Assembly (NCBI GenBank): GCA_016196035.1
Contig: JACPYM010000006.1
Coordinates: 62,001-126,000 of the forward strand
DNA: 64,000 bases
Reading direction: 5' to 3'
Source: Acidobacteriota bacterium
Lineage (GTDB): Bacteria > Acidobacteriota > Blastocatellia > RBC074
Positions 31,269-49,782 of this stretch are shown here, one piece after another; position 1 is the stretch's first letter, and every line of letters starts with the position of its first letter. The position numbers and the translations under genes were made by a program. The notes beneath the pieces were generated by a model that ran no database searches, was not told the DNA's origin, and was given only the letters and a program-made list of their open reading frames with translations.

Positions 31269-31281
31269 TTGCGCCAATGCC

Positions 31282-31776: not shown

Positions 31777-31900
31777 AGCTTTAGACCCCACCGGTTATTC
31801 AATGAGAAATGCAAGAAAAAGGCCGTCAGGCATTTTGCTCTGCGTGGTAAAGGCTCCAAAGGCTCCAGCCAATCAGGAACCAAATTGCGCGATTCAGCGG

Positions 31901-32785: not shown

Positions 32786-34618
32786 TCAACTTCCAAGGGG
32801 TAAGGTCAAGCTGAAAACCGTCCCCACGCCCACTTGCGATTGCACGCCCAAATGTCCGCCTTGCGCTTCGGCAAGACGCCGGGCAATCGCCAATTCCAGG
32901 CCCGCGCCGCTGGCTGCCGAATCCGGCGTTTTGACAAAGCGGCTGAAGATGCGTGGCAGGTATTCCGGCGGGATGCCGCGCCCGGTGTCGGCGACGGCAA
33001 TCACCAATTGCTCGGCGCTGGTGGCAGCGGACAAAGTGAGTGTGCCGCCGCGCGGGGTGTTTTCGATGGCGTTGCCCAGCAAAATGCCGAGCACGCGCCG
33101 CAGCATTTCAGGATCGGCCTGGATGGCGGGCAGATTGGCCGGGAGTTCGCGCAGAAAGGTCAGATCAGCCGCTTCGATCTGTAATTGCCAGGCCTCGGCT
33201 AGCGTGCACAACCATTCCGAGGCAGCCAGCCGTTTGAGCACAGGCGTGTGCGCACCAGCTTCCAGTTCGGTCAGTTCCACCAGCTCGCGCATGATGCGTT
33301 CCAGCTTCTCGCTGTCTTCACGACAGGCATACAGCATGTCGCGTTGCTGGTCGCTCAACGCGCCTAGTTCGTCGGCTAGCACCGCGTGTAAATCCATCTG
33401 CACGCTGAGCAACGGTTCTTGCAACGCCTGCGCGGCGGTGGCGATGAATTCCGTTTTGAAGCGGTCAAGCCCTTGCTGCTGCGAGACGTTTTCCAGCAAC
33501 AACACCGCGCCCAGCAACTGGCCCGCGCCGTCGCGCATCGGTTTGGCGCGCGGGCGCAAAGTACCCAACGAGCCATTGAGCGCGAGGGGCAGCGCCGTGC
33601 CGAACGTTTCGCCGCTGGCGGGGGATTTGAGCGCTTCGACCACGGCTGAGGCCAGCCGCTGATCGGGCGCAGTTTCCGTAACGGTTTTGCCCAAGCTGTG
33701 CTCTTCTGCGCCAAACACGGCTTCTGCCGCCGGATTCAAACTGGTGATGCGCCCCTGTTCATCCGTCACCACGACAGGATCGTTGAGCAAATCAAGCGCG
33801 GCGGCTGTGGTCTGTTGCGCCACGACCAGCTTGCCGATGTCGGTTTGCCGCAATTGTCGAATGCGCGCGGCCATGCGGTTGAACTCCACCGCCAGCACGC
33901 CGGCTTCATCACGCGAAAGGATCTCGGCGCGTGCCCCCAGATCGCCCCCGGCAATGCGTGCCGCCGTGGCGGTCAACGCCACAATCGGTTGCACAATGCG
34001 GCGCGCCAGGTAAAACGCCAACGCTAGCCCCACACCAATCAAGCCGACGGCGAGTACGAACGTCAGCCACAGCGAACGCCGCGCCACGCCAGCGGCACGT
34101 GCGGATTTTGTCCGCATCGCGCCTTGATTGAGCTGCAACAATTCGTCGCAACGTCCGCGCAGTCGGTGAAACGCCGGTTCGAGTTCTGCAAAGTAGCGGC
34201 TGCGGAAACCCGCTGCTTCGTTCAACACTACGCGTCCGTCCGCCTGCCACCACGCATCCACGCTTCGATAATAGGCCTCACGTTCATTCCGCAGCTTGGC
34301 AATCAGTTCCGTTTCGCCCGGTTCGGTAATGTTGTTGGCAGCTTTTTCGAGCGCGGCATCGAACCGGGCACGCTGCTCACGTAATTGTGTGTCCGCGCGT
34401 TCGGTTTGCCCCAGCAACCGGATCACGGCGGCGGAGTCCTGCCGTTCCAGACTCTCTTTCATCTCTTGCGCGGCGACCACCGAATCGTAATTCTCTGAGA
34501 TGATTAGTTGTGCCACGCCACTCAATTCGCGCAAGCGCCACGCGCTCCACGCTCCTAGCGCCCCCAAGGCCAGCACAAAAAGCAAATAACTGAGCAAAAG
34601 TTTGAGGCGCAAATTCAT
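32786..34618 (-). CDS. Histidine-kinase-like membrane sensor lacking the H-box His
   Basis: 610 residues. Membrane helices at about 5-25 and 183-204 flank a helical periplasmic sensor. HAMP follows (about 205-255), then PAS (265-370), DHp (385-450) and an ATPase domain (500-610). The N box (LLGNAIENTP) and G1 box (VADTGRGIPPEYL) are present, but the H box reads AQALQEPL, with Q397 where His is expected, and G2 reads GAGLELAI. It therefore should not autophosphorylate. Its ATG overlaps the stop of the KdpD sensor module by 4 bp. It may be a pseudokinase that regulates K+ signalling, or part of a split KdpD complex. Confidence 0.85.
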   Translation of the reverse strand: MNLRLKLLLSYLLFVLALGALGAWSAWRLRELSGVAQLIISENYDSVVAAQEMKESLERQDSAAVIRLLGQTERADTQLREQRARFDAALEKAANNITEPGETELIAKLRNEREAYYRSVDAWWQADGRVVLNEAAGFRSRYFAELEPAFHRLRGRCDELLQLNQGAMRTKSARAAGVARRSLWLTFVLAVGLIGVGLALAFYLARRIVQPIVALTATAARIAGGDLGARAEILSRDEAGVLAVEFNRMAARIRQLRQTDIGKLVVAQQTTAAALDLLNDPVVVTDEQGRITSLNPAAEAVFGAEEHSLGKTVTETAPDQRLASAVVEALKSPASGETFGTALPLALNGSLGTLRPRAKPMRDGAGQLLGAVLLLENVSQQQGLDRFKTEFIATAAQALQEPLLSVQMDLHAVLADELGALSDQQRDMLYACREDSEKLERIMRELVELTELEAGAHTPVLKRLAASEWLCTLAEAWQLQIEAADLTFLRELPANLPAIQADPEMLRRVLGILLGNAIENTPRGGTLTLSAATSAEQLVIAVADTGRGIPPEYLPRIFSRFVKTPDSAASGAGLELAIARRLAEAQGGHLGVQSQVGVGTVFSLTLPLGS

Positions 34619-35802
34619 TCGTCACTTCCTCCACCGTTCTGCGCGCGCGTGGTTGACGCAGCCGGCCTGTCCATCGGCACGACTTGCACCGTCGCCTCGC
34701 GCACTTCGTTGAGAAAGCGATTGATGATCGAACCATGCAGCAGAATGTTCCAGCGCGAGCGCGCCGATTGGCCGAAGATGACATGGGTAATGCATTCACG
34801 CCGTGCAAATTCGATCAGCGCATCAGCCACGTTACTGCCTTTGAGTTTCACCACGCGCGCGCCCAAGCCCTCGGCAAATCGGATGTTCTCTTGCAAGGCC
34901 ACGAAATCCTGCGGATCAATGCGCCCCGGCTCTTCGCGCGGCGTCTCGACATAGACGGCATACCAGTCATCCGCCAAACGCCCGGCGATGCGCGAACCGG
35001 TCCGCAGCAGCTTTTTGGCGCTGCCTCGCGAGGCCATACAGACCATCACCCGTTCGGGCAGCGTGGCTTGTTCCAGGCCCTCCTGCGCGCGGTATTTGCG
35101 CGCCTTCACATCCTGGTCTTCGGCCAGTTGCCGCAGAGCCAGTTCGCGCAAGGCGGTCAGATTGCCTTTGCGGAAGAAGTTGTTGAGCGATTGTTCGATC
35201 TTTTCGACGCCGTAAATTTTGCCTTGCCGCAAGCGTGTGCGCAGCGTGTCTACCGAAACGTCCACGTTGACGACTTCGTCGGCGCGACGGATGACGTGAT
35301 CGGGAATCGTTTCGCGCACGCGCACGCCCGTCACCTGGGCGACTACATCATTGAGCGATTCGATGTGTTGAATGTTGACGGCGGTGATGACTGAGATGCC
35401 GTGGCTGAGCAGTTCTAAAACATCCTCGTAGCGTTTGTGATTTTTCGAGCCGGGGACGTTGGTATGGGCGAGTTCGTCCACAATGGCGATGGCGGGCTTG
35501 CGCGCGATGACGGCGGCCAGGTCAAGCTCTTTCAATGTCACGCCACGATAGGCAATGCCGCGCAGCGGCACCTGTTCCAAATCTCCGATCAGTGCTGCCG
35601 TGTCGGCGCGTCTGTGCGTCTCGATTACGGCGACGACGACATCCACGCCCTGCCGTATGAGTTGCTGCGCGTCCTCCAGCATTTGGTAGGTCTTGCCGAC
35701 GCCGGGCGCTGCCCCGAGATAGACCCGTAGCCGTGGCTGCTCTTCCGCCTTCAGCTTCGCCAGCAAGGATTCCGGTGATGGTCTGCTCTCGCCATTTTGC
35801 AT
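34615..35802 (-). CDS. kdpD: Stand-alone KdpD N-terminal sensor module (KdpD + USP domains)
   Basis: 395 residues, against about 890 for E. coli KdpD. Residues 22-235 are the KdpD domain with Walker-type LGAAPGVGKT (K37) and VDELAHTNVPGSKNHKRY. Residues about 248-370 form a universal stress protein domain (VMVCMASRGSAKKLLRTG), the part known to bind nucleotides or c-di-AMP in some species. The DUF4118 helices and the kinase are absent. It follows kdpC by 11 bp on the same strand, so it belongs to the kdp operon. The missing half matches the gene at 44870-46081. Confidence 0.92.
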   Translation of the reverse strand: MQNGESRPSPESLLAKLKAEEQPRLRVYLGAAPGVGKTYQMLEDAQQLIRQGVDVVVAVIETHRRADTAALIGDLEQVPLRGIAYRGVTLKELDLAAVIARKPAIAIVDELAHTNVPGSKNHKRYEDVLELLSHGISVITAVNIQHIESLNDVVAQVTGVRVRETIPDHVIRRADEVVNVDVSVDTLRTRLRQGKIYGVEKIEQSLNNFFRKGNLTALRELALRQLAEDQDVKARKYRAQEGLEQATLPERVMVCMASRGSAKKLLRTGSRIAGRLADDWYAVYVETPREEPGRIDPQDFVALQENIRFAEGLGARVVKLKGSNVADALIEFARRECITHVIFGQSARSRWNILLHGSIINRFLNEVREATVQVVPMDRPAASTTRAQNGGGSDE

Positions 35803-35813
35803 GCCGAATGCTC

Positions 35814-36389
35814 TTATTTTTTCAGCGGATAACGGTCGTTGAGGGCCAAATTCAACAGCAACACGTTCACTCTCGGTTCGCCCAAAAAGCCGAACGAACG
35901 AACGTCAGTGTTCGTGGCGACCAGCGCCCGCAGGTCATTTTCGCTGAGGCCCCGCTCGCGTGCCACGCGCGGCACTTGGAATTCCGCCGCCGCAGGCGAG
36001 ATGTGCGGGTCGAGGCCGGAGCCAGAAGTCGTCACCAAATCCACCGGGATCGGCTGGCCGGGATTTTCGGCTTGCAGCTTCTCGACATCCGCCTTGACAC
36101 GGTCAATCAGTTTCTTGCTGGTCGGGCCCAGATTGGATGCGGACGACGCGCCCGCATCGTAACCCACCGCGCCCGCTGCCGAGGGCCGCGAGCGAAAATA
36201 GCCCGGCGAAGAGAAAGGCTGACCGATTAAACGCGAGCCGATCACTACGCCATTGCGCTCGATCAACTGGCCGTTGGCTTTGTCTTTGAATAGGACTTGC
36301 GCCAGGCCAGTCACGACGAGTGGGTAGACCAATCCCAGCAGGATCGTCGTCACAATCGTCATCAGAATTGCAGTCTTTAAGTTTTTCAT
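35814..36389 (-). CDS. kdpC: KdpC, potassium-transporting ATPase C chain
   Basis: 191 residues, normal length. One N-terminal membrane helix (AILMTIVTTILLGLVYPLVV) is followed by GSRLIGQPFSSPGYFRSRPS and the late GLDPHISPAAAEFQVPRVA, both family hallmarks. It anchors and assists the KdpB pump in the inner membrane. The gene lies 193 bp after kdpB, with a palindromic element in between, and 11 bp before the KdpD sensor gene. Confidence 0.96.
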   Translation of the reverse strand: MKNLKTAILMTIVTTILLGLVYPLVVTGLAQVLFKDKANGQLIERNGVVIGSRLIGQPFSSPGYFRSRPSAAGAVGYDAGASSASNLGPTSKKLIDRVKADVEKLQAENPGQPIPVDLVTTSGSGLDPHISPAAAEFQVPRVARERGLSENDLRALVATNTDVRSFGFLGEPRVNVLLLNLALNDRYPLKK

Positions 36390-36470
36390 CTTCTCTCCGG
36401 TTTCGTATCTAGCCGCTTCTCTCCAGTTTCGTGTCTAGCCGCGTTTGATAGTCATAAAAACGGTGCCTAC

Positions 36471-36576
36471 CTGGGTACGCAGCGCTTCCAGCGTGCAGTC
36501 TCGGCAGCAGACCGCCTTCTTCCGGCAGGAATTCGTCTTTTACCGAGACTGCACGCTGGAAGCGATGCGTCCCCAG
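36471..36576. repeat. 106-bp palindromic element, copy between kdpB and kdpC
   Basis: The 34-bp ends (CTGGGTACGCAGCGCTTCC... and complement) pair with only two mismatches around a 38-bp centre. It has the same length and arms as copies at 40538-40643 and 59219-59324. It splits two genes that normally abut, and its hairpin could alter kdpC expression. Confidence 0.85.
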
Positions 36577-36582
36577 GGCAAA

Positions 36583-38622
36583 CTACGCCAATCCCAACGC
36601 CACAATGATCACGTCAATCAGCTTGATGCCAATGAACGGGACAACCACGCCACCTAAGCCATAGATCAACAGGTTGCGCCGCAATAGCACCGCTGCGCTC
36701 AACGGGCGATACTTGACGCCTCTGAGCGCCAGCGGAATCAGCACGATGATGATCAGCGCATTGAAAATCACCGCTGACAGAATCGCCGATTGCGGCGTCG
36801 CGAGCTTCATAATGTTCAGCGCATTCATCACCGGAAACGCCGCCGAAAACATCGCCGGGATAATGGCAAAGTATTTCGCCACATCGTTGGCGATGGAAAA
36901 GGTCGTCAGCGCGCCGCGCGTCATTAACAACTGTTTGCCAATTTCGACTACCTCGATCAGCTTGGTCGGATTGGAATCGAGATCAACCATATTGCCTGCT
37001 TCTTTCGCGGCTTGCGTGCCAGTGTTCATTGCCACGCCGACATCGGCTTGCGCCAACGCGGGTGCGTCGTTGGTGCCGTCGCCGGTCATGGCGACGAGCT
37101 TTCCTTCAGCCTGTTCGCGTTTGATCAGCGCCATCTTGTCTTCGGGCCTGGCTTCGGCGAGGAAATCGTCCACGCCGGCTTCACGTGCAATCGTCGCCGC
37201 AGTCAGCGGGTTGTCGCCCGTGATCATCACCGTTTTGATGCCCATTGCGCGCAGTTGATCGAAGCGTTCTTTCATCCCGCCTTTGACGATGTCTTTCAGA
37301 TAAATGACACCCAGCGGACGTTTGCTATCGGCCACGACGAGCGGCGTGCCGCCCGCTTTGGAGATGCGTTCGACAATCTCGCGCAATTGCGCTGGAGCTA
37401 GCGCGCCATTATTGCTGACGTAGCGTTCAATCGCATCCACCGCGCCTTTGCGAATTTCGCGCCCGTCGTAATCCACGCCGGACATGCGCGTTTGCGCTGT
37501 GAACGGGATGAAGTGCGCCTGATGGGTGTGCAGTTCGCGCCCACGCAAACCGTATTTCTCTTTCGCCAGCACGACAATTGAACGCCCTTCTGGTGTCTCA
37601 TCGGCGAGCGAAGACAATTGGGCGGCTTCGGCCAACTCCATCGCATCTACGCCGGGCAATGTGACGAACTCGGTCGCCTGCCGATTGCCCAGCGTGATCG
37701 TGCCGGTCTTGTCGAGCAGCAGCGTATTCACGTCACCCGCCGCCTCGACCGCGCGCCCGGACATCGCCAGCACGTTATGTTGGATCAAGCGATCCATCCC
37801 AGCGATACCGATGGCTGAGAGCAGTCCGCCGATGGTCGTCGGGATCAGGCAAACCAGCAACGAGACGAGCACGAAGATCGTCTGCGGCGCGTTCGAATAA
37901 ACGGCGAAGGGCTGTAACGTCACAACGGCGAGCAGAAAGATAATCGTCAAGCCTGCGAGCAGGATGTTCAGCGCGATTTCGTTTGGCGTCTTCTGCCGCT
38001 CGGCGCCTTCGACCAGCGCGATCATGCGGTCGAGAAAGGTCTCGCCAGGGTTCGAGGTGATACGAATCTTGATTTGATCTGACAGCACGCGCGTGCCGCC
38101 GGTGACTGCCGAACGGTCGCCACCGGCTTCGCGGATGACGGGTGCGGATTCGCCCGTGATGGCTGATTCATCCACCGAGGCGACGCCTTCGATAATCTCG
38201 CCATCGCCGGGAATGAATTCGCCCGCCGAGACGAGCACGACATCATCTTTGCGCAACTGCGTCGCGCCGACCACTTGCGTCTGTCCGTTGGGCAACAGCT
38301 TGTTCGCCGTGGTCTCGGTTCTGGCTTTGCGCAAGTTGTCCGCTTGCGCTTTGCCGCGCCCTTCGGCCATCGCCTCGGCGAAGTTGGCGAAAAGCACGGT
38401 GAACCAGAGCCAGAGCGTGATCTGCAAGTCAAACCCGATACCATGCGTACCCTGTGCAAGATCGCGGACGAGCAAAATCGTCGTGATGACGCTGCCCACC
38501 TCGACGACGAACATCACCGGGTTGCCCATCATTTTGACCGGGTGCAACTTGCGGAATGAATCCCCCAAGGCGCGCGTCATGATCTTCGGGTCCCAAATTG
38601 AGATCGTCTTTTCTTTAGCCAT
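36583..38622 (-). CDS. kdpB: KdpB, P-type potassium-transporting ATPase B chain
   Basis: 679 residues, full length. The phosphorylation motif [13 protein letters not shown], the actuator TGES ([10 protein letters not shown]) and the hinge [24 protein letters not shown] are intact. It hydrolyses ATP to drive high-affinity K+ uptake with KdpA. The gene lies 80 bp after kdpA, with an inverted repeat in the gap. The stop codon lies 6 bp from the end of the 106-bp element. Confidence 0.97.
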
Positions 38623-38636
38623 AGTCTCTTTCTGTT

Positions 38637-38700
38637 TGTAGTCCCGCCTTCAGGCGGAAGGATTGCTTACCAACCCATTCCGCCTGAAGGCGGGACTACA
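38637..38700. repeat. Inverted repeat with 23-bp perfect arms between kdpA and kdpB
   Basis: TGTAGTCCCGCCTTCAGGCGGAA is too long to give in full; the arms at 38637-38659 and 38678-38700 are exact complements with an 18-nt loop. Each arm also has a CCGCCTTCAGGCGG inner palindrome. It occupies nearly the whole kdpA-kdpB gap. Confidence 0.85.
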
Positions 38701-38702
38701 AA

Positions 38703-40514
38703 CTAAAATGTCTGTCCCGCTTGCATCAGCAAATGCTCCACGATGGGGCCCAGGCTCAAGACCGGAAAGAAGGTCAGCGCCCCCACGATCAAAATCACGC
38801 TCACCAACAATGTCGCGAAAAGCGGCGTCGTGACCGGGAACGTGCCCAAGGACGGCGGCACGATCTTTTTGCGGCCCAGACTGCCCGCCAGCGCCAGCAT
38901 CGGGATGATCATGAAAAACCGCCCCAACAGCATCGCCGCGCCGAGGGTCGTGTTGTACCAATACGTGTTGGCCGAAATGCCCGCGAAGGCCGAACCGTTG
39001 TTGCCTGTGCCTGAGGTGAACGCATAGAGCATTTCGGTCAGCCCGTGCGGCCCGCCGTTGTTGAGTTGCGCGGTACCAAAGCCTGATGAGACTGACGAAA
39101 TCGCCGTGAAGACCAGAATCGTCAGCGGGAAGATCAGCAGATTGAGCATCGCCATCTTCACGTCGTAAGCCTCGACCTTCTTGCCCAGATACTCCGGCGT
39201 GCGCCCGACCATCAGCCCGGCGATGAAGACCGCCAGTACGACGTAAATCAAGATGCCGTACAGCCCCGCGCCCACACCGCCAAAGACCACTTCGCTGAGC
39301 ATGATGTTCGCCAGCGGCACCAACCCGCCCAGCGGTGTGAAGGAATCGTGCATCCCGTTGACTGCGCCGCACGAAGCATCGGTCGTAATCGTCGCCCAGA
39401 GCGCGGTATTCGCCAGCCCGAACCGCACTTCTTTGCCTTCCATATTGCCGCCCGACTGCATCACCGTCGTCGCCTGATCCACCCCGGCCAGCAGCGGATT
39501 ACCTTTCGCTTCGGCCCAGTAACTCACCAGAATGCCCGCAAAAAACAGCGCCGACATCGCGGCGAAGACCGCCCAGCCGTGGCGTGGCGAGCCAGTCATC
39601 CGGCCCAGCGTGTACGTCAGCCCCGCCGAGACGGCGAAGATCGCAATCATCTCCAGGAAGTTCGTCAACGGCGTCGGGTTCTCGAAGGGGTGCGCGCTGT
39701 TGGCGTTGAAGAAGCCGCCACCGTTCGTGCCCCACTCCTTGATAGACTCTTGCGAAGCCACCGGCCCTTGCGCGATCACTTGTTCGGTGATTTGTTGCGT
39801 CTCTTTGAGCGGCTTGCCGTCCGGCCCGTTGACGACGTTCCCCTGCGCGTCTTTCTTCTCTACCTCGATGGTTTGAGGGTCGAGCAGTTTGACGGTGTCG
39901 TAAGGCCGCAGGTTTTGCGGCACGCCGCCTGCCACCAGCACCAGCGCGCCGACGAGGCAGAACGGCAAACAGACCCACAAGGCTGCCCGCGTCATGTCTA
40001 CCCAGAAGTTGCCCAGCGTGTCTTTCTCGCGCTGCGCGATGCCGCGAATAAAGGCGATAGCGAGCGCAATGCCGACCGCCGCCGAGACGAAGTTGTGATA
40101 CGCCAGCCCCGCCATCTGCGTCAGGTAACTCATCGTCACTTCGGGCACATAGCTCTGCCAATTGGTGTTGGTCGTGAACGATGCCGCCGTGTTGAAGGAC
40201 GAGTGCGGAATGATCCCCGCCAGCTTTTGCGGATTGAAGGGCAAATAGTATTGCAAGCGCTGAAGCGCATAGAGCACGAGCATCGAGACCAAGCTGAAGA
40301 GCAGCATCGTCACGCTGTACTCCGTCCAGCGCATCTCACGCCGTTCGTCCACGCCGGTCAGGCGATAAATCAGCCGCTCCAGGGGCCGCAACACCGGATC
40401 GAGCAATGTCCGCTCGCGGTTGAAGACGCGCGTCATAAACACGCCGAGCGGCTTCGTGACGGCGAGGATCACGGCAAAAAAGAGCAGGATTTGTAACCAG
40501 CCGTTGATTGTCAT
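38703..40514 (-). CDS. kdpA: KdpA, potassium-transporting ATPase A chain
   Basis: 603 residues, some 45 longer than the E. coli protein, mainly through an insert near residues 215-250 rich in charged residues ([10 protein letters not shown]). The K+ filter motifs are present (for example [20 protein letters not shown] near 270). About ten membrane helices. It forms the selective K+ channel part of the Kdp pump. It follows kdpF after 140 bp that hold another 106-bp palindrome. Confidence 0.96.
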
Positions 40515-40537
40515 AAGAGTCCGTGATTAACGGCTGC

Positions 40538-40643
40538 CTGGGTACGCACCGCTTCCAGCGTGCGGTCTCGGCCACAGACCTTTTCCTATCGGAAGGAAGC
40601 CGCCTGTCACTGAGACTGCACGCTGGAAGCGGTGCATGCCCGG
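40538..40643. repeat. 106-bp palindromic element, copy between kdpF and kdpA
   Basis: Same arms and length as the copies at 36471 and 59219; the outer end of the right arm has drifted (GCATGCCCGG). The centre keeps a CTATCGGAAGGAA stretch also seen in the 59219 copy. No gene or flanking duplication is evident. Confidence 0.85.
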
Positions 40644-40654
40644 GGGCACGTCAG

Positions 40655-40744
40655 TTAAAACTTCTCCGGGCGCAGCAGTGCGTAAGTCAAATAGACCAGC
40701 AATGCTGCCGCCGCGACCAACGATAAAATTGATTCCCAGTTCAT
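40655..40744 (-). CDS. kdpF: KdpF, small stabilising subunit
   Basis: 29 residues: one hydrophobic helix (LSLVAAAALLVYLTYALL) ending in RPEKF, the typical KdpF tail. It begins MNWESIL. AGGAG lies 6 bp before the ATG at 40744. KdpF is a single-helix subunit that stabilises KdpABC in the membrane. It is in the expected place upstream of kdpA. Confidence 0.9.
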   Translation of the reverse strand: MNWESILSLVAAAALLVYLTYALLRPEKF

Positions 40745-40759
40745 CGTTCTCCTCGTTCT

Positions 40760-40930
40760 TATAGCGATTTGCAGATGGGCGCGACCGACCAATGTAGGAG
40801 CAGACCTGGGTGTCTGCCCCGGTGGCAGCAGACGGAATCGAAGGTGTCAAAGGTGACCAGGGCAACACGCAGGTCTGCCCCTACGTTGCCTGTGGTTGTT
40901 GCAGGTCGCACCCAATTGAAAACCGCTATA
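40760..40930. mobile_element. MITE-like 171-bp element with terminal inverted repeats
   Basis: The ends TATAGCG...GCGACC (40760-40786) and the complement at 40904-40930 match at 22 of 27 positions. A second pair of arms inside carries GTAGG-GCAGACCTG. There is no coding capacity. The TA at the outer ends could be a target duplication. It lies between the two 29-residue membrane-protein genes. Confidence 0.5.
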
Positions 40931-40933
40931 AAG

Positions 40934-41023
40934 CTATTGCAGCTTTTCACACCCGCGCACGTACACGAACGCGAGCAAAAAGAAGATCACTGTGACAGCG
41001 AGATAGATTAGGTCGTCCATCAT
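40934..41023 (-). CDS. 29-residue single-helix membrane protein upstream of kdpF
   Basis: MMDDLIYLAVTVIFFLLAF followed by VYVRGCEKLQ, with one membrane helix and a basic/polar tail. GGGAGAA lies before the ATG pair at 41023/41020. Small proteins ending in C-E-K/R-L are often found just upstream of kdpF in other bacteria (general knowledge), so a Kdp-linked role is likely, although none is established. Confidence 0.7.
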   Translation of the reverse strand: MMDDLIYLAVTVIFFLLAFVYVRGCEKLQ

Positions 41024-41175
41024 TTCTCCCAAATTTGACGCACCGCTTATTTGCGCCCAGCCGCTCGTGCAAGCGGTGGCGCAACCGCGCGCGTCCGCGC
41101 AAGCCATGTGCCTGCCGCCTTTGCGCATCTTTACCCAGTTGTGCACGCCGTCTGGCCAGCCGTGTTTCTGTCCGT

Positions 41176-41523
41176 TTACAGATCGTCGTCGTCTTCGTCG
41201 TCATCACGCGCGACCTGCGACAAGTCTTGTGTCTTCCCCGGCTCCAACCAATCCAGACAGCACGCACCCAGCAGAATGAGCGGTATCGTTAAACACAGCA
41301 GCACCGTGCCAGCGGTCGCCAGCCAGTGCTTTGCGCCAGCGTCAGCCGTCAGCCATCCGGCGGCTGTCAGCAGCGCGCCCAGCACCGCGACCACCACACC
41401 GCCGCCTAGTCCGCTGAAAGCGCCCCAAACCTGCACGCCCTCCCGCGCGTGCCTACCAATGGCGGACGGCTTGACACTCGCGTTTAGGTTTGCGTCCTGA
41501 TGTAAAAGAGTAAGTGCGCGCAT
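41176..41523 (-). CDS. Small two-helix membrane protein with acidic tail
   Basis: 115 residues from the ATG at 41523 (GGAGAACG upstream). Two hydrophobic segments (about 33-56 and 66-88) and an Asp/Glu-only ending (ARDDDEDDDDL). I do not recognise the family. It is the first gene after the 11-bp repeat operator at 41651-41694 and precedes the kdpF-kdpA genes on the same strand, so it could be the first gene of the kdp transcript. Confidence 0.6.
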   Translation of the reverse strand: MRALTLLHQDANLNASVKPSAIGRHAREGVQVWGAFSGLGGGVVVAVLGALLTAAGWLTADAGAKHWLATAGTVLLCLTIPLILLGACCLDWLEPGKTQDLSQVARDDDEDDDDL

Positions 41524-41888
41524 GTCGTTCTCCTTCGGCTGCCCCCGTCTGGCTGCGAGGTCATTTCTGCCGCTCTCGTGCCAGCGCGGGGGGAAGCCTT
41601 GTTTTGTTTCGTTTGGGTCAATCATCAACGGTTTCAGCGTAGGGCAGGAGCCGTAAAGATGGCGCAAGTTGTTTATAAATAGTTCGTAAAGAGTCTTTTT
41701 ACGTTCAGGCGCTAGGGCGGTGTGTGATGTCTCAACTCAGCGCCTGCCGAGTTGATAGATTGGAGGGAGGGTCAGTAAAAACGCGGGCGCATGCCGGGCT
41801 GGGCATAAGCAGAGCACTTGCGACATAGCTGGAGATAAGCGGAAGAATTGATGGAGTTGGCCCGGCTGGCTCCCTGCCGAAAGCCAGG
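41524..41888. other. Regulatory gap between KimA gene and small-protein/kdp genes
   Basis: The 365 bp hold no gene that I can support. The notable content is the array of 11-bp repeats at 41651-41694. The remainder is GC-rich spacer, and the promoter for the genes from 41523 downward must lie here. Confidence 0.5.
41651..41694 (-). promoter_or_regulatory. 11-bp direct repeats, candidate KdpE-type operator
   Basis: Four contiguous 11-bp blocks. Blocks 1, 3 and 4 match the pattern (T/C)(C/T)(G/A)TAAA(G/T)A, for example TCGTAAAGAGT; block 2 is degenerate. OmpR/PhoB-type regulators bind 11-bp direct repeats, and a KdpE-like regulator is encoded 2.5 kb away. The array lies about 130 bp upstream of the start codon at 41523. 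Confidence 0.55.
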
Positions 41889-43886
41889 TTAATGCTTGAG
41901 GTGGTACGGCACGTTCACCACGATGACGCCTTGTTTGAACAACAACGCGCCTTTCAGCAAGAGCGAGCTTTGGTTGTGCAACAAGTGTTGCCACCATTTG
42001 GCGGGCACGAATTCGGGAATGATCACGGTGACAATGTCGTCATCGCGCTTGCGGTCTACACGATGAATGTAGCGCAACAGCGGCGCGGTCAATTCACGAT
42101 AAGGCGAAGGCAGGACGACTAGGTTGACGCCAAAATTCCACTGCTCCCAATTCTTGCGCAGGAGCGCGGTGGCCTGTTCATCAAAATCCACATAGACCGC
42201 CGTCACATTGTTAGGCGCGATGGATTTGGCGTATTGCAGCGCATTGATGACGCCGCGATGAATGCCGGAAATCGGCACGATGACCGCGTGGTTGACTTCG
42301 TGCAGTGGCTCTACGCCCTCGATCGTGAGTTGCCGCGCGACGTTGCGGTAATGCTCGTGAATTGCTTTGAACAGCAGCACCAGCAGCGGAATCACAACCA
42401 CCACGATCCACGCGCCGTGAATGAATTTGGTCACGATGAAAACCGCCAGCACGATGGCGGTGGCAATGGCGCCGACGCCGTTGATGACGATGGATTTTTT
42501 CCAACTGGCCGGGGCCGTGACTTCATCGTGCACGAAATGCGATTGCTGCTGTTGTTCCACTGCCAAGGCGACATCGGGCAATGGCTGGCGGGCCGCGCCT
42601 GCCGCCGTTGCAGCATTCGCCGCCTGCGCGTGCCCCTTATCACGTTCGGCCAGCCAATGCCGCACCATACCCGCTTGCGAAAGCGTGAACGAGAGGAAGA
42701 CGCCGACAGCATACAGCGGAATCAGTCGCGAGGTGTCCCCGGCGAAAGCCACTACCAGCAGGCTGGAGAAAAGCGCCAGAATCACGATGCCATTCGAGAA
42801 CACTAGCCGGTCGCCGCGATTGGCGAATTGACGCGGCAGAAAGCGGTCGCGCGCCAACAAACTGCCCAGCCGCGGGAAGTCCGCGAACGAAGTATTCGCG
42901 GCCAACACCAAGATCGCCGCCGTCGCCGCTTGCACCAGGTAATAACACCAACTCAGTGGGCCGGTGAACATGATGCGCGCGAATTGCGAAATGACGGTTT
43001 CGCTGGCGTTCGGATGCACACCGTACAAATACGCCATCAGGCTGGTACCCAGAAACATCGTCGTCAGCAGCACCGCCATCCAGACCAGCGTGGTCGAGGC
43101 GTTGCGGGCTTCGGGCGCTTTGAACGCCGGAATGCCATTCGAAATCGCCTCGACGCCGGTCAACGCCGAACAGCCATTCGAGAACGCACCCAGCAACAAA
43201 AACAGCGTGAGCGGTTGCGCGTGATAGCCTACGGCCAGTGCCAGGTTTTCGCCGGGCGCGGGTGCGGCACCGCCGAATTTCAAATAGTGGAAGAGGCCAT
43301 ACCCGATCATGAACAGGAAGCTGACGATAAAGACATAGGTCGGCACGGCAAAGAGTGCGCCTGATTCGCGCACTCCGCGCAAGTTGGCGAGCGCAATCAG
43401 CACGATGAAAAAGAGACCGAGCGCGACCTTGTGATCATCCAGCCAGGCAAAGCGCGTCCCCTGCACCGCCGAAGTAAGCGCCGCCACGCCCGCCGCAATC
43501 GAAACGGAAACCGTCAGCACGTAATCCACCAGCAATGAGGCCGCCGCGATCAAACCGGGCGTCGTGCCCAGATTCTCTTTGGCGACGATGTACGCGCCAC
43601 CGCCCGATGGATAGGCATGAATCGTTTGCCGATAACTGATCGCGACGATAGCCAGCAGCGCGGCGATAGCGAGCGAAATCGGAATGACGTATTGAAACGC
43701 GTGGGTCTGGCCGTAAGCGACGGCCACGGCCAGCACGAGCAGAATCTCTTCGGTCGCATACGCTGTCGAAGAAAGCGCGTCTGAAGAAAAGACCGCCAGC
43801 GCCGTCAGTTTGGAAAGCCGTTCGTGGGCCGCCTGTTCGGTTCGCAAGGCTCTCCCGACGATGAGGCGCTTAACCGATGTCGCCAT
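41889..43886 (-). CDS. kimA: KimA-type (KUP superfamily) potassium transporter
   Basis: 665 residues. The start VKRLIVGRALRTEQAAHERL and FSSDALSSTAYATEE closely resemble Bacillus KimA (formerly YdaO). D36 and Y43 fall at the same positions as ion-pathway residues I recall for that protein, and D121-Y122 fit its next conserved pair. About 12 helices cover residues 30-495, and a soluble USP-like C-terminal domain covers 500-665. KimA takes up K+ with protons and is inhibited by c-di-AMP in Firmicutes. The gene lies between the KdpE-like regulator and the kdp genes. No c-di-AMP riboswitch was seen upstream. Confidence 0.85.
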   Translation of the reverse strand: MATSVKRLIVGRALRTEQAAHERLSKLTALAVFSSDALSSTAYATEEILLVLAVAVAYGQTHAFQYVIPISLAIAALLAIVAISYRQTIHAYPSGGGAYIVAKENLGTTPGLIAAASLLVDYVLTVSVSIAAGVAALTSAVQGTRFAWLDDHKVALGLFFIVLIALANLRGVRESGALFAVPTYVFIVSFLFMIGYGLFHYLKFGGAAPAPGENLALAVGYHAQPLTLFLLLGAFSNGCSALTGVEAISNGIPAFKAPEARNASTTLVWMAVLLTTMFLGTSLMAYLYGVHPNASETVISQFARIMFTGPLSWCYYLVQAATAAILVLAANTSFADFPRLGSLLARDRFLPRQFANRGDRLVFSNGIVILALFSSLLVVAFAGDTSRLIPLYAVGVFLSFTLSQAGMVRHWLAERDKGHAQAANAATAAGAARQPLPDVALAVEQQQQSHFVHDEVTAPASWKKSIVINGVGAIATAIVLAVFIVTKFIHGAWIVVVVIPLLVLLFKAIHEHYRNVARQLTIEGVEPLHEVNHAVIVPISGIHRGVINALQYAKSIAPNNVTAVYVDFDEQATALLRKNWEQWNFGVNLVVLPSPYRELTAPLLRYIHRVDRKRDDDIVTVIIPEFVPAKWWQHLLHNQSSLLLKGALLFKQGVIVVNVPYHLKH

Positions 43887-43972
43887 AGAGATCGCTCAAC
43901 TCCTTTGAAATTCGCGTTGTCGTGCTGGTTTGTTCAGGCTGGTAACACACGTCACGAACTGTAGGGCAGCCG

Positions 43973-44005
43973 GCATAAGGAAGTTATAAAGAGTGCATAA
44001 AGAGT
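43973..44005 (-). promoter_or_regulatory. Three 11-bp direct repeats upstream of the KimA gene
   Basis: GCATAAGGAAG, TTATAAAGAGT and GCATAAAGAGT stand in perfect 11-bp phase, ending about 87 bp before the KimA start codon. They match the array at 41651-41694 (TTATAAATAGT, TCGTAAAGAGT). The shared motif and spacing point to one regulator, probably the KdpE-like protein encoded just upstream. Confidence 0.6.
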
Positions 44006-44043
44006 TCGTAAGGGCGAGATACAGACTGAGGTTTCGGCGAAGC

Positions 44044-44146
44044 CTTTGGAGTGCGTGCGGCACAGGCCGCCGCTTTGGTAGTCCTTTGGCGTTTACGAAA
44101 TGAAGGGCATACCAAAGCGGCGGCCTGTGCCGCACGCACTCCAAAG
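44044..44146. repeat. Inverted repeat with 37-bp perfect arms
   Basis: Arms 44044-44080 and 44110-44146 are exact complements (CTTTGGAGTGCGTGCGGC... with complement), with a 29-nt loop. It lies 28 bp past the regulator's stop codon. It may terminate the kinase-regulator transcript or be an inserted repeat unit. Confidence 0.88.
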
Positions 44147-44174
44147 ACGCTGCGCGTCGAAGAAAGCGAATCCA

Positions 44175-44873
44175 TCAACCTTCAGCGTTGAAGCGATACC
44201 CAACCCACGGCTCAGTCAGGATGTAGCGCGGATTGGCTGGGTCGGCTTCGATCTTCTTGCGCAACTGGCCGACAAAGACGCGCAGGTATTCGGTCTGTTC
44301 GGTGTAATCACCGCCCCAAACAGCCGCCAGCAGTGCCCGATGCGTGAGGACTTTGCCCGCGTGCTGCAGCAGGTAAGCCAGCAACTCAAACTCTTTTGGC
44401 GTCAGGTGCAATTCGGTGCCGCGCAATATGATGCGGTGAGCGGTTTGATCCAGGCCGAAATCGCCGGCAGCCAATTGCGCCGAGGCAGCTTTCGACAAGC
44501 TGGCGGGCACGCGCCGCAACGCGGCACGAATACGGGCGAGCAGCTCATCCATACCGAAGGGTTTCGTCACGTAATCATCCGCGCCCGCATCCAGCGCCTT
44601 CACTTTGGTTTGCTCTTCGCCTTTGACCGAGAGGACGATGATTGGCAGTTGCGTTTGCAGCCGTAATTGGCGGCACAATTCGATGCCATCCATACCGGGC
44701 ATCGTCAGATCGGTCACCACCAGATCGGGCGGCCAATCGTGCAGGACATCCAGCGCGGCCTCGCCATCCGCCGCCGTGCGCACATCGTAACCATGCGTTT
44801 GCAGGCTGCGCCGCAACACGCGTGTGATCTGCGGTTCATCATCCACCACCAAAATGCGCTTGTGTTCGTTCAT
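44175..44873 (-). CDS. kdpE: KdpE-like OmpR-family response regulator
   Basis: 232 residues. Receiver domain with acidic pair D11-D12, phospho-acceptor D55 and Lys in YVTKPF; winged-helix domain from about 135 with HLTPKEFELLAYLLQHAGKVLTHRALL and VFVGQLRKKIEADP...RYILTEPWVGYRF, as in KdpE. It should bind direct repeats and activate K+ uptake genes. Its start overlaps the stop of the sensor-kinase gene by 4 bp. The symbol rests on family resemblance and gene context. Confidence 0.88.
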   Translation of the reverse strand: MNEHKRILVVDDEPQITRVLRRSLQTHGYDVRTAADGEAALDVLHDWPPDLVVTDLTMPGMDGIELCRQLRLQTQLPIIVLSVKGEEQTKVKALDAGADDYVTKPFGMDELLARIRAALRRVPASLSKAASAQLAAGDFGLDQTAHRIILRGTELHLTPKEFELLAYLLQHAGKVLTHRALLAAVWGGDYTEQTEYLRVFVGQLRKKIEADPANPRYILTEPWVGYRFNAEG

Positions 44874-46081
44874 GAGGTTTGCTCCGCCGCGACATCCTCA
44901 TCATCGCCGATCGGCACGGTGAAATGCACGCGCGTGCCGCGTCCTTGTGCGCCTGGCTCCATCCAGATGCGTCCGCCGTGAGCTTCAACAATGCCCCGCG
45001 CGATAGCCAGACCCAGCCCGCTGCCGCTGCGGCGCAGCTTCTTGGCTTCAGGCGTCGCGCGAAAGAACCGGTCGAACACTTTTTCGCGCAACTCCGGCGG
45101 AATGCCCGGCCCTTCGTCTTCGACGGTCAGTTGAATCTGTTCTGTCGCCGCCAGCACCGCGCCGCTGATGCGCACACGCGAACCAGCGGGCGCGTATTTG
45201 CAGGCATTGTCCACCAGCGTGTAAACCACCTCGGCCAACGCGCGTTCATCCGCCCGCACCAGCGGCAATTCGGGCGGCAAGGCGACCTCAAGGCGATATT
45301 CTTGTGTCACGCGCTCAGCCCGTTGCAACGCGGCAGTGACGATCTCTTCGACATCGCCCCATTGGCGCGGCAGCACAAACGCGCCTGCTTCGAGTCGCGC
45401 CAATTCAACCATGCTGCCGATGAAAGCGTTGAGCCGGTCAGCCTCTTCGTCAATCACTTCCAGCATCTCGCGCCGGTCTTCGGGCGCAAGTTTGAATGCG
45501 CCATCAGCATCAGATTCAGAGGCCGCGCGCAACTCTTCGAGCAGGGTTGTGGCCGAAGCTTTGATCGCGGTCAGCGGCGTGCGCAGATCATGGGTGACGG
45601 CGTCGAGCAAGGCGGATTTTAACTGTTCGCTGCGCCGCAAGGCTTCGGCCTGGCTGGCGCGTTCAAAGACCTCTTGCGATTCACGGTACAGGCGTTCGAT
45701 CTCGCGCCGCCCGGCCTCGGCCTCTTCGGCGCGTTGTTTGGCGCGCGCTGACAATTGCCCCACAACCAGCGCCGTCACCAGGAAGGCAAACAGCGCGACC
45801 CAATTGTCAGGATCGGCAATCGTGAAGGTGTGGACGGGCGGCAGGAAAAAATAGTTGAAGTAAAGTACCGCGACCAACGACAGCGCGACGGCGGGCCCGC
45901 TGCCCCAGCGCGTCGCAATCAGTAACACCAGCAAGAGTAAGGCCAGCGCCGCTGTCGTCGTATTGACGCGCCCTGGCATAAACGGCGCCAGCAACAGGGT
46001 GAACGTAGCGATACCGCCCACCGCCACCCAGAAACCCAGCTTCCCTTCCCGCATCAGACTGTTCAGACGGGCCAGTGTCAT
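44870..46081 (-). CDS. KdpD C-terminal-type sensor kinase (DUF4118 + HisKA)
   Basis: 403 residues. Four closely spaced helices at about 15-110 (DUF4118, NYFFLPPVHTFTIADPDNW) are followed by a linker helix, an H box THDLRTPLTAIKAS with H164, and an ATPase domain (N box LVDNACKYAP, G1 VEDEGPGIPP, G2 GSGLGLAIARG). This is exactly the C-terminal half of KdpD without its KdpD/USP input domains, which are encoded separately at 34615-35802. It overlaps the KdpE-like gene. Its own ATG overlaps the stop of a 59-codon gene fragment. Confidence 0.92.
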   Translation of the reverse strand: MTLARLNSLMREGKLGFWVAVGGIATFTLLLAPFMPGRVNTTTAALALLLLVLLIATRWGSGPAVALSLVAVLYFNYFFLPPVHTFTIADPDNWVALFAFLVTALVVGQLSARAKQRAEEAEAGRREIERLYRESQEVFERASQAEALRRSEQLKSALLDAVTHDLRTPLTAIKASATTLLEELRAASESDADGAFKLAPEDRREMLEVIDEEADRLNAFIGSMVELARLEAGAFVLPRQWGDVEEIVTAALQRAERVTQEYRLEVALPPELPLVRADERALAEVVYTLVDNACKYAPAGSRVRISGAVLAATEQIQLTVEDEGPGIPPELREKVFDRFFRATPEAKKLRRSGSGLGLAIARGIVEAHGGRIWMEPGAQGRGTRVHFTVPIGDDEDVAAEQTS

Positions 46082-46257
46082 CGTTGCTCGATTCGATAAA
46101 GATGCGTGCGCGTGCGCAGGTAAAAGGCCTTGCCCGCAATGGCGGGCGAAGCGAGAAAGCTTTCGTCCAGCTTATTCTCAGCCAGCTTTTCAAACGCGCG
46201 GCCCGGTTTGCTGACGGTAGTTTTGCCCTCTTCGCTAAAGAGCCAGCGTTTGTCCAT
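46078..46257 (-). pseudogene. Detached 3' end of the PQQ-type beta-propeller gene
   Basis: An open frame of 59 codons (start MDKRWLFSEEGKTTVSKPG, end RTRTHLYRIEQR) matches the last about 57 residues of the protein encoded at 56678-57946, with only a few changes. At DNA level 46078-46246 aligns without gaps to 56678-56846, roughly 90% identical by eye. The copies are in direct orientation, 10,600 bp apart. The upstream part of the gene is absent. The TGA overlaps the ATG of the sensor kinase (ATGA). It is a fragment left by recombination or integration, and could still be translated. Confidence 0.85.
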
Positions 46258-46310
46258 GTGTTGACCAGCTTGAAAACCGCGTGCTACTTTCTGTGTGAAG
46301 AGAAAGCTTT

Positions 46311-46715
46311 ATGTCGTTAGCCTTGTCCAGAACCAGTCAGAGAAACCGCCCGGCACAGTGCGCCATCGCACTGCTGCTGCTGTCTCTTTCGCTGGTTGAC
46401 CTGGCCGTGATTGATCTTTTTGCGCCGGAGCTTTGCGAAAGCGCAAGTGTGACGCTGGCGCAGACGGCGGCGAATGTCAGTGACGCCGAGAGCAGCGCTC
46501 AACCAAGCGCCACGGCAAGCGGCCTTCCGCTACCAAACTCGTCCGCCCCCTTGTCACTTGAGGAAGATTGTTTTTGCTGCTGCGCCCACACGCTACCAAG
46601 TGCTTATTTCAGACTCCCGGCCTTGCCCTTGCCACCTGACAGAGCCGCTTCACTGAGCGTCTTTCTTCCTACCGCTCCGCCTGCGGCGCTGTTCCGCCCG
46701 CCGCGCCGCGCTTAA
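46311..46715 (+). CDS. Small exported protein with CFCCCAH metal-type motif
   Basis: 134 residues. One hydrophobic N-terminal segment (CAIALLLLSLSLVDLAVIDLF) is followed by a Ser/Ala-rich spacer and EEDCFCCCAH (C87, C89, C90, C91, H93), then a Pro-rich tail ending LFRPPRRA. I recognise this as a small conserved family that stands before efflux operons in acidobacteria. Four Cys and a His in seven residues suggest metal capture or sensing in the periplasm. It is the first gene of the metal-efflux island; 251 bp without a gene separate it from the TolC-like gene. Confidence 0.72.
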   Translation: MSLALSRTSQRNRPAQCAIALLLLSLSLVDLAVIDLFAPELCESASVTLAQTAANVSDAESSAQPSATASGLPLPNSSAPLSLEEDCFCCCAHTLPSAYFRLPALPLPPDRAASLSVFLPTAPPAALFRPPRRA

Positions 46716-46966
46716 CCCCGCTCACTTTCCACCCATTTGCGACAGCTTTGAATGCCGCAGCGTTTTGTCGCAGCGCGGCATCAGGCTACGGCCTGGCTCG
46801 GCTTGCAATTCGGTGTACTGGAAGCGCGCGCACTGAACTGTGCGCTCACTGCCGGTCACGGTACTGACCCATACACGCAATTGCAAACCGCTCCAAAGCG
46901 GTCAGGTATTGATCCGTCAGCGCGGTGGCTTGTCCGGGTGATGAGTCATCGGCAGGGGTTATTGCG

Positions 46967-48376
46967 ATGTTCCATGCAAAGTCTATCTATCCACAACGCG
47001 CCCCAGGTTCGCGGGTGCGGCGCCTGGGTTCTGTCTTTTTGTGTCTGCTCGTTTGCCTAACGGCGACAGCATTCAGCCAGCATTTGCCGGGCGCGAAAAT
47101 AATCGTGTCGGCTGCCACTGATACGCTGCCTGAGCAGCGGAACCAGCCTTTCATTGACCCGCTGCAAGGTATGTCAGCGGCGGATTTGGTGCGCCGCGCG
47201 CTCACTGCCAACAATGAACTGGCGGCCTTTCGCCTGGAAGTCGAACGTGCCCGCGCGCGCTTGCAACAAGCCGGTTTGAGGCCGAACCCGACGCTCGATT
47301 TCGAGCAATCAAGCGGACGCCTGGCGAACAATCCCGGCGACCGCGCGACCAGCGTCGGCCTGGCGTTGCCGCTGGAAGTCGGCGGGCAACGCGGCAGGCG
47401 CATTGACCTGGCGCAAGCCGAACTGGCCGCCGTGCAAGCGCAAGTCGCCGAACGCGAACGCCTGCTGGCGGCAGAGGTGCGCAAGGCTTTCGTTGACGCT
47501 CTCAGCGCGCAACGCGAGCTTGAAATCACCGACGGGCTGAACCGGCTCGATACGCAAACCGCCAGCATTGTCGAAACGCGCGTAGGCGTGGGCGACGCCG
47601 CGCCGCTCGAAGCTAGTCTGTTGCGCGTCGAGATTGACCGCCTGCTGGCGCGCCGCGCATTGGTAGAAGGCCGTTGGCAAGCAGCGCTGTTGCGGCTCAA
47701 AACGCTGGCGGGCATGGCCCCGGAAGAAAGCTTGCAACTCCGCGCCGATTCATCGCTAACAGCGGCGGCGATGCCAGCTTCGCTTAACGAGGCGCTTGAA
47801 ACGGCGCTGCGGATGCGCCCCGATTTGCGTCTGGCGCGGCTGGTCGAAGCCGCCGCGCAGGCGGGGTTGCGGCTGGTTGAAGCGCAGGCCAGACCGTCCG
47901 TCACCATCAACACCAGGTACACAACTGATCGCACACTGACCAGCTTGCCCGCGCCGTTCACCCCGTTCCCGGACAGCGGGCGCACGCTGACGATGGGCGT
48001 CTCGATTGGGCTGCCGGTCTTTAACCGCAATCAGGGCGCGAAGGCCGAGGCGGCGACGGCGATCACGCAGGCACAGCAGCGCCGCGTTTTTATCGAAGCC
48101 GCGATTCGCGCCGAAGTCGCCAGCGCGTTCGCCCGTCAGCAGGCGGCCACGCGGGCGCTCGCCATTTTTGAGCAAGGCGTGCTGGGCCGCTCACAGGACA
48201 ACCTGCGCGTGCTGCGCGGCGCTTATGAAATCGGCGCGTTCAAAGTCACTGAACTGCTGGCCGAACAGCGCCGCCTGCTGGATGCGCAAAAAGAATTCAT
48301 CGAAGCGTCAGCCGAACGCGCCCGCGCGCTGGCCGATTTACAAACAGCGCTGGGCGTCAGCGAGGAGCAACAATGA
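46967..48376 (+). CDS. TolC-family outer-membrane efflux protein (CzcC/CusC type)
   Basis: 469 residues from the ATG at 46967 (GGGG upstream); the product then carries a signal peptide (FLCLLVCLTATAFSQ). It has two internal helical repeats of the outer-membrane efflux fold (RRALTANNELAAFRLEVERARARL and a second at FARQQAATRALAIFEQG), with RPNPTLDFE before a strand. It forms the outer channel of an RND metal pump. Stop and start of the next gene overlap by 4 bp. Confidence 0.9.
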   Translation: MFHAKSIYPQRAPGSRVRRLGSVFLCLLVCLTATAFSQHLPGAKIIVSAATDTLPEQRNQPFIDPLQGMSAADLVRRALTANNELAAFRLEVERARARLQQAGLRPNPTLDFEQSSGRLANNPGDRATSVGLALPLEVGGQRGRRIDLAQAELAAVQAQVAERERLLAAEVRKAFVDALSAQRELEITDGLNRLDTQTASIVETRVGVGDAAPLEASLLRVEIDRLLARRALVEGRWQAALLRLKTLAGMAPEESLQLRADSSLTAAAMPASLNEALETALRMRPDLRLARLVEAAAQAGLRLVEAQARPSVTINTRYTTDRTLTSLPAPFTPFPDSGRTLTMGVSIGLPVFNRNQGAKAEAATAITQAQQRRVFIEAAIRAEVASAFARQQAATRALAIFEQGVLGRSQDNLRVLRGAYEIGAFKVTELLAEQRRLLDAQKEFIEASAERARALADLQTALGVSEEQQ

Positions 48377-49782
48377 ACAACCTGAGCAACGAAACCACTC
48401 AAACGCGGCGCTACAGTCCGCCCTTTTATCACGGCGTCAGCGCCTGCCTGCTGCTGGCCTGCGCGCTGCTGCTCGCGGCCTGCAACAGCAAAGCCGAGCA
48501 GCCGGAAGCGCCCGCCAAACAAGCAGACAAACACGACGAACACAAGCCAGGCGCGGCGCAGGAAGTCGAGCTTGCGCCCGCCGCCTTGAAAGCCGCCGGA
48601 ATCGAATTTGCCGAAGTCACGGCGCGTGCTTTCAGCGGCAGGCTGCGCGTGGCGGGCAGCGTGGAAACCAATCAGTTGCAGACACAACAAGCCACGCCGC
48701 TGGTCACCGGGCGCATTGAGCGCGTTTATGCCGCGCCGGGCGAGCGCGTGAAAGCGGGGGCTGTGCTGGCGATGATTTCCAGCCCACTGATCGCGCAAAT
48801 GCACGGCAAGCTGCACGAGTCTGAAACGACGCTCGCCCTCGCCGAACGCAATCTCAAGCGCGTCGAGCAGGCCGAAAACCGCGCGGCAGTGTTGACGGCG
48901 AAGGCGCGGCTGGATGAAGCCGAAGCCGCGCTCAACCGCACGCGCAAGCTCATCGAACTGGGCGCGGGCGCGGGCAAAGACCTGATCGCGGCAGAGACGG
49001 CTTACAAAACGGCGAAGGCCGACTATGACTTTCAGGGCAATATCATGCTCAACAAGGAAATTCAGGAAGCCCGCGCCGCCGTCGAGACTGCGCGGGTGGA
49101 TGTCAGCCACATCCGCTTTGAAATGAAAGCCCTCGGCGCACCGGTGGCGGAAGACGACCACGACGACCATACGCGCGACACTTCGCTGCTGGCGTTGCGT
49201 GCGCCTGTTTCAGGCACGGTCACAGAACGCACGGTCAATGCCGGCGCGGGCATCGAAGCGGGCAAGCCGCTTTTCACCATTGCCAATCTGACGACTGTCT
49301 GGGTGATTGCCAGCGTGCCCGAAGCGCAACTCAGCGGCCTGCGCGCCGGAACCGCCGCGCAAATTTTTGCCGCCGCGTTCGGCGCTGATTCGCGCCCGGC
49401 CCGCATCAGCTACGTTGATCCGCAACTCAACGAAGACACGCGCACGGCCCGCGTCCGCCTGGAGGTCGCCAATCCCGGCGAAAAGCTCAAAGCCGGAATG
49501 TTCGTCGAGGTCGAGTTTCAAACCGGCGCGGCGATCAACGAGGGGACTGAAATCGTCATCCCTTCGCTGGCGCTGCAACGGCTGGGCGAACGCACCGTGG
49601 TCTTTCTGGCGGAAGCCGGTGAAGCCGGACATTTCACCGTGCGCGCGGTTGAAGCGGGCGGCGCCAGCAACGGCCTGACGCGCATCCTGAACGGGCTGAA
49701 AGCCGGTGAGCGCATCGTCACCAAAGGCAGTTTCACGCTCAAGGCGCAATTGCTGAAAAGCGAGATGGAGGACGAGCACTGA
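48373..49782 (+). CDS. RND efflux periplasmic adaptor lipoprotein (CzcB type)
   Basis: 469 residues. Lipobox LLAAC with C37. Lipoyl/barrel-sandwich halves near 95-140 and 260-300 flank a long helical hairpin (ESETTLALAERNLKRVEQAEN). His/Asp-rich pieces (KHDEHKPG, EDDHDDHTRD, EDEH at the end) suggest metal binding. Beta-barrel and membrane-proximal domains complete the protein. It links the inner pump to the outer channel. TGATG overlap with the pump gene shows tight coupling. Confidence 0.92.
   Translation: MNNLSNETTQTRRYSPPFYHGVSACLLLACALLLAACNSKAEQPEAPAKQADKHDEHKPGAAQEVELAPAALKAAGIEFAEVTARAFSGRLRVAGSVETNQLQTQQATPLVTGRIERVYAAPGERVKAGAVLAMISSPLIAQMHGKLHESETTLALAERNLKRVEQAENRAAVLTAKARLDEAEAALNRTRKLIELGAGAGKDLIAAETAYKTAKADYDFQGNIMLNKEIQEARAAVETARVDVSHIRFEMKALGAPVAEDDHDDHTRDTSLLALRAPVSGTVTERTVNAGAGIEAGKPLFTIANLTTVWVIASVPEAQLSGLRAGTAAQIFAAAFGADSRPARISYVDPQLNEDTRTARVRLEVANPGEKLKAGMFVEVEFQTGAAINEGTEIVIPSLALQRLGERTVVFLAEAGEAGHFTVRAVEAGGASNGLTRILNGLKAGERIVTKGSFTLKAQLLKSEMEDEH

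Follow-up and report, generated by a model that had tools for sequence, protein, structure and literature searches.

The window analysed here, a stretch of 64,000 nucleotides from an Acidobacteriota bacterium of the Blastocatellia (contig JACPYM010000006.1, positions 62,001 to 126,000), carries on its minus strand a group of K+ uptake genes together with putative regulators and promoters. These features are listed below in the direction of the genes.

44870..46081, minus strand: C-terminal half of KdpD (DUF4118, HisKA and HATPase domains), overlapping the 5' end of kdpE
44175..44873, minus strand: KdpE-type response regulator, the proposed binder of both arrays (E. coli KdpE, PDB 4kny, E 6e-58)
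43974..44012, minus strand: predicted KimA operator, four half-sites at 11-bp spacing, 24/24 to YTTAYR x4 (CTTACG 44012-44007, TTTATG 44001-43996, TTTATA 43990-43985, CTTATG 43979-43974)
43958..43963, minus strand: -10-like hexamer TACAGT of the KimA promoter, 10 bp past the last half-site
41889..43886, minus strand: KimA-type K+ transporter, 665 aa (KimA, PDB 6s3k/8b70, E 1.5e-158; PF13520)
41652..41690, minus strand: predicted kdp operator, four half-sites, 23/24 to YTTAYR x4 (TTTACG 41690-41685, TTTATA 41679-41674, CTTGCG 41668-41663, TTTACG 41657-41652)
41636..41641, minus strand: -10-like hexamer TACGCT of the kdp promoter, 10 bp past the last half-site
41176..41523, minus strand: small two-helix membrane protein, 115 aa, the first gene past the kdp operator; ribosome-binding site AAGGAG
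40655..40744, minus strand: kdpF, 29 aa (PF09604, E 3.3e-11)
38703..40514, minus strand: kdpA (TIGR00680, 716 bits)
36583..38622, minus strand: kdpB (TIGR01497, 1097 bits)
35814..36389, minus strand: kdpC (TIGR00681, 215 bits)
34615..35802, minus strand: separate KdpD N-terminal sensor protein (PF02702, E 4.7e-92; weak Usp match)
32786-34618, minus strand: HAMP-PAS histidine kinase

KimA was the sole PDB match of the 41889-43886 protein, with homology over the transporter. KdpD is split in this locus: its sensor domain forms a gene of its own after kdpC and is followed by the HAMP-PAS kinase, and the DUF4118 half overlaps kdpE. Between the small membrane protein and kdpF lies a hydrophobic ORF of 29 residues, MMDDLIYLAVTVIFFLLAFVYVRGCEKLQ (40932-41021), which has a GGGAG site and is perhaps a second KdpF-like peptide. 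Two kinds of inverted repeats are also present. The element at 44030-44158, between kdpE and the KimA operator, has 44-nt arms that are 93% complementary, and it is a dispersed hairpin that recurs dozens of times in the genome (91 matched pieces). The second kind occurs twice inside the kdp operon, at 36470-36577 (between kdpC and kdpB) and at 40537-40644 (between kdpA and kdpF). No Rfam family, riboswitches included, reached the gathering score at window positions 30000-50000.

Written in gene orientation, the KimA array is CTTACGAACTC TTTATGCACTC TTTATAACTTC CTTATG, followed by 10 bp and TACAGT, and the kdp array is TTTACGAACTA TTTATAAACAA CTTGCGCCATC TTTACG, followed by 10 bp and TACGCT. 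On the minus strand (the sense strand for KimA and the kdp genes alike), the half-sites are arranged as CTTACG-N5-TTTATG-N5-TTTATA-N5-CTTATG and TTTACG-N5-TTTATA-N5-CTTGCG-N5-TTTACG, respectively. The unit common to both arrays is YTTAYR (TAAR on the plus strand), oriented towards the gene, and the 5-bp spacer and the 11-bp period are exact in both. Two of the four KimA units contain the core TTTA and the remaining two CTTA; in the kdp array, three units contain TTTA and one CTTG. A preliminary description of this DNA had placed two direct-repeat arrays in exact 11-bp phase upstream of the small-protein/kdp genes and of the KimA gene. Both the phase and the positions were confirmed, with four YTTAYR units in each array. 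The range proposed for the kdp array (41651-41694) was right, whereas that for the KimA array (43973-44005) omits the outermost half-site; the KimA array therefore consists of four units, not three. The 11-bp repeat also stood, but the core assigned to it, TAAAGAGT, was too narrow. This core is found exactly in one of the four kdp units and two of the four KimA units, and the conserved part is TAAR.

When the 9.59-Mb genome containing the window was scanned with TAAAGAGTNNNTAAAGAGT, allowing up to three mismatches, the KimA and kdp arrays were the top two matches. A scan with YTTAYR x4 gave no mismatch for the KimA array, one for the kdp array, and three for the next independent place. The next-best match in the genome, C35:51825 with three mismatches, was rejected as a further operator because TANNNT is absent at the fixed offset and no K+ gene was recognised nearby. 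Simulated sequence of 4.8 Mb with the dinucleotide composition of the window contained no score of 21/24 or higher, compared with 24 and 23 for the window arrays. Frequent occurrence of the motif in unrelated places, which the preliminary description had named as an objection, was not seen in the genome scan; since the arrays are the best two genome matches and the simulation was empty, this objection fails to refute the proposed operators.

The arrays recur in related genomes. In 55 loci (some overlapping), whose selection rested mostly on KimA or KdpA and not on the motif, 67 arrays of three units scoring at least 16/18 were found at a period of 11 bp, and 0-6 at each other period from 7 to 16. 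A pattern scan detected four-unit arrays with up to two mismatches in 91 of the 162 genomes of the class, and the reversed-control pattern gave few matches in these genomes, except in an AT-rich genus. About 60 array regions were examined, comprising nearly all matches with zero or one mismatch and some with two, and 103 distinct arrays formed the set for the statistics on offsets, neighbours and units. The hexamer TANNNT stands at offset 49, exactly 10 bp past the fourth half-site, in 94 of the 103 arrays, compared with 0-4 at each of the other offsets, and no -10 element was part of the search pattern. The units differ systematically from one another, giving the class consensus TTTACGAACTT TTTATAAACCC TTTACGCCATC YTTATG (103 arrays). 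On the same strand, 72 of the 103 have a kdpE/kdpD-like gene no more than 2.5 kb upstream. In the subset found by pattern only (68 arrays in 52 genomes), a kdpE-like gene lies within 700 bp upstream of 45 arrays, and 62 arrays precede a recurring K+-locus gene family. The kdpFABC and KimA promoters of relatives have conserved arrays, mostly directly downstream of kdpE. In the relatives L219, L220, L176, L269, L262 and L021, two operators stand in tandem within about 0.4-1.8 kb, ahead of one gene or of adjacent genes.

Few matches turned up outside the class, but in other families of the phylum they include sites ahead of KdpA, Kup and an APC transporter and sites adjoining KdpE. At 80 loci of KimA orthologues, 73 of them outside the Blastocatellia-like set, TTTAYR arrays at period 11 were not above those at other periods, and the KimA loci of other phyla had no array enrichment even where kdpDE adjoins. 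Therefore, the operator is not a universal feature of KimA.

The best NCBIfam model for the 44175-44873 protein is KdpE (NF007820), at 221 bits, which is under the cut-off of 325 bits. The protein consists of a receiver domain (PF00072), in which the phosphorylatable Asp equivalent to D52 is conserved, and a winged-helix domain (PF00486). It keeps the equivalents of R193, R200 and T215, the DNA-binding residues of KdpE defined by mutation. These residues are kept in all 68 KdpE-like proteins collected, and R193 is absent from RegX3 and MtrA in the alignments. The earlier assignment of a KdpE-like gene next to the arrays is thus upheld by the best NCBIfam model, the 4kny match and the conserved DNA-contact residues.

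In E. coli, the KdpE site of kdpFABC is TTTATA-N5-TTTACA, at -72 to -50; its half-sites are AT-rich with an invariant TT, and TTTA is essential (PMC3264566). The arrays described here share its six-base half-sites, 5-bp spacer, 11-bp period and cognate regulator family. The half-sites of the E. coli operator are also oriented towards the operon, as they are in both arrays. However, the E. coli operator comprises two half-sites and lies upstream of the -35 box. Because 10 bp separate the last half-site from the -10-like hexamer, the arrays would cover the -35 region if TANNNT is the -10 element; they do not occupy the E. coli-type location, and the promoter layout therefore differs from that of E. 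coli. The targets differ as well: kdpFABC in E. coli, but here also KimA, and Kup and others in relatives. In E. coli, Trk and Kup are described as constitutive, and kdpFABC is the known target of KdpE (PMC5458449).

The authors of a study on M. smegmatis reported that its KdpE site, CCGTAAAGAAACCATCAAGGCC, has no similarity to other KdpE motifs (PMC5401905). In our own reading, the other strand contains TTGATG-N5-TTTACG, an 11-bp pair that is one base off YTTAYR x2. Unlike the arrays here, it is a single pair, belongs to a SigF promoter, and serves kdpFABC only (PMC5401905). The PHO boxes are tandem direct repeats of 11 nt with the half-site CTGTCAT, and PhoB contacts sigma70 (PMC4415409). 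They resemble the arrays in their head-to-tail 11-nt repeats, in the OmpR/PhoB-family regulator, and in their position near the -10 element in place of a -35 box. In PHO promoters the distance to the -10 element is also 10 bp. They differ in the half-site, CTGTCAT as opposed to YTTAYR, and in function, phosphate as opposed to a K+ regulator and K+ genes. A c-di-AMP riboswitch also controls kdpFABC (PMC6488665); there too one K+-related signal steers K+ import, but the control is RNA-based. The reading of the arrays as KdpE operators is well supported, and their four-site layout overlapping the -35 region would make them a variant of the known ones, controlling the pump and the secondary transporter together.

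Both arrays are very probably KdpE-type operators in KdpE-dependent promoters, which would form a low-K+ regulon joining the P-type pump and the secondary transporter. A single OmpR-family, KdpE-like regulon for Kdp and KimA, as first suggested in the preliminary description, is consistent with and supported by the published half-site, the contact residues, the uniqueness of the arrays in the genome and their conservation in relatives. Several points count against KdpE: the score of the regulator (221 vs 325 bits), the different promoter layout, some array-bearing genomes that are without kdpA or without the KdpD sensor domain (although kinases with DUF4118 are common near arrays), and the KimA loci of other phyla without arrays.

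In the proposed mechanism, scarcity of K+ would lead the split KdpD kinase (KdpDc, 44870-46081) to phosphorylate the regulator 44175-44873, and the separate KdpD sensor protein (34615-35802) perhaps acts with KdpDc. Two head-to-tail KdpE dimers would occupy the four 11-bp half-sites, which would start at about -61, -50, -39 and -28 (a span of about -61 to -23) if TANNNT, at -12 to -7, serves as the -10 element. Once bound, the dimers may recruit RNA polymerase directly to a promoter that lacks a normal -35 box, as with PhoB, and KimA and the small protein-kdpFABC operon would be switched on together. We infer the binding, the phosphorylation, the direction of activation and the low-K+ signal; activation at low K+ is proposed because of the biology of KdpE in E. 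coli and M. smegmatis.

It is unlikely that another OmpR/PhoB-family regulator of the genome binds the arrays and that the neighbourhood reflects a shared K+ function only. Members of this family do read such direct repeats, with 11 nt in PHO boxes (PMC4415409). This genome also has other kinases with DUF4118 (4 matches). However, the half-site is that of KdpE and not the CTGTCAT of PhoB, the arrays are found directly downstream of kdpE-like genes throughout the class, and the adjoining regulators keep the base-contact residue R193 of KdpE. It is considerably less probable still that the KdpE-bound arrays are repressor or dual sites, or that they work at high instead of low K+. KdpE is a positive regulator in both E. 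coli (PMC3264566) and M. smegmatis (PMC5401905), and the strict distance of 10 bp from the -10 element, as in PhoB-activated promoters, is expected of an activator, although an operator over the -35 region can also block the polymerase and the sequence does not reveal the direction. Accidental 11-bp periodicity in AT-rich promoter DNA is already refuted: promoters are AT-rich, and in the AT-rich genome G021 the control matches as many as the real pattern, but among relatives the arrays occur at period 11 only, the simulation gave nothing comparable, the arrays are conserved in many genera, and the -10 offset is fixed.

With both arrays read as KdpE operators, the predicted regulon of the class extends beyond Kdp and KimA. 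The genes downstream of arrays in the class comprise kdpFABC, KimA, Kup (PF02705) and an AA_permease_2 protein of about 800 aa, and, for the outer membrane, BBP2 porins (PF07642) or a secreted protein of about 230 aa with an outer-membrane look. Several genomes without detected kdpA retain arrays before KimA or Kup; therefore, the regulator is not tied to the pump. The porins occur in the same operons at L021:6089-7930, L211:1636-3138 and L226:4659-6260, and the family of about 230 aa, which has an FNVP start, at L163:8426-9118, L242:1605-2345 and L241:5490-6182. Genome G136 has perfect arrays ahead of the small protein and kdpA, and ahead of a porin (L225, L226). The outer-membrane-like proteins suggest that an outer-membrane channel accompanies K+ import.

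The small membrane protein of the window had no Pfam match above the cut-off. Proteins of its family (90-120 aa) have two hydrophobic helices and carry the motif GAHCLD, and a homologue is encoded first behind about half of the arrays. Members precede kdp, KimA, Kup or other transporters (window 41176-41523, L237:1844-2170, L238:1599-1895, L137:8621-8890 and others). Directly behind some operators (L168, L152, L170, L260 and L262), it is replaced by a protein of about 135-170 aa with a conserved end of the WxxxAExxLxxYxxExxxxPP type. A family of membrane proteins of about 640 aa, also directly behind operators, resembles APC transporters by eye (L245:4616-6535, L229:3739-5733, L231:3572-5503, and further members at L264, L265, L266, L246, L249 and L218). 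No Pfam or NCBIfam match was obtained for this family, and the PDB gave none with a single sequence and none convincing with a profile; the comparison with KimA by hhalign was weak (probability 26%). It is a possible new K+ transporter of the APC type. A class-wide low-K+ regulon of the Blastocatellia-like Acidobacteriota with uncharacterised parts can be proposed tentatively, as plausible but slightly more doubtful than secure: the GAHCLD small protein may serve several K+ importers as a common accessory or brake, and the 640-aa APC-like family may be a new K+ importer.

In a literature search with most subscription journals outside its coverage, no paper was found that describes KimA as controlled by KdpE or includes Kup in a KdpE regulon. 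Across a class of soil bacteria, one regulator appears to govern both a P-type pump and secondary transporters through a single readable operator. The geometry of operator and promoter is so regular that K+-responsive genes may be found by sequence alone, and this sequence-based finding extends to unannotated transporter and small-protein families.
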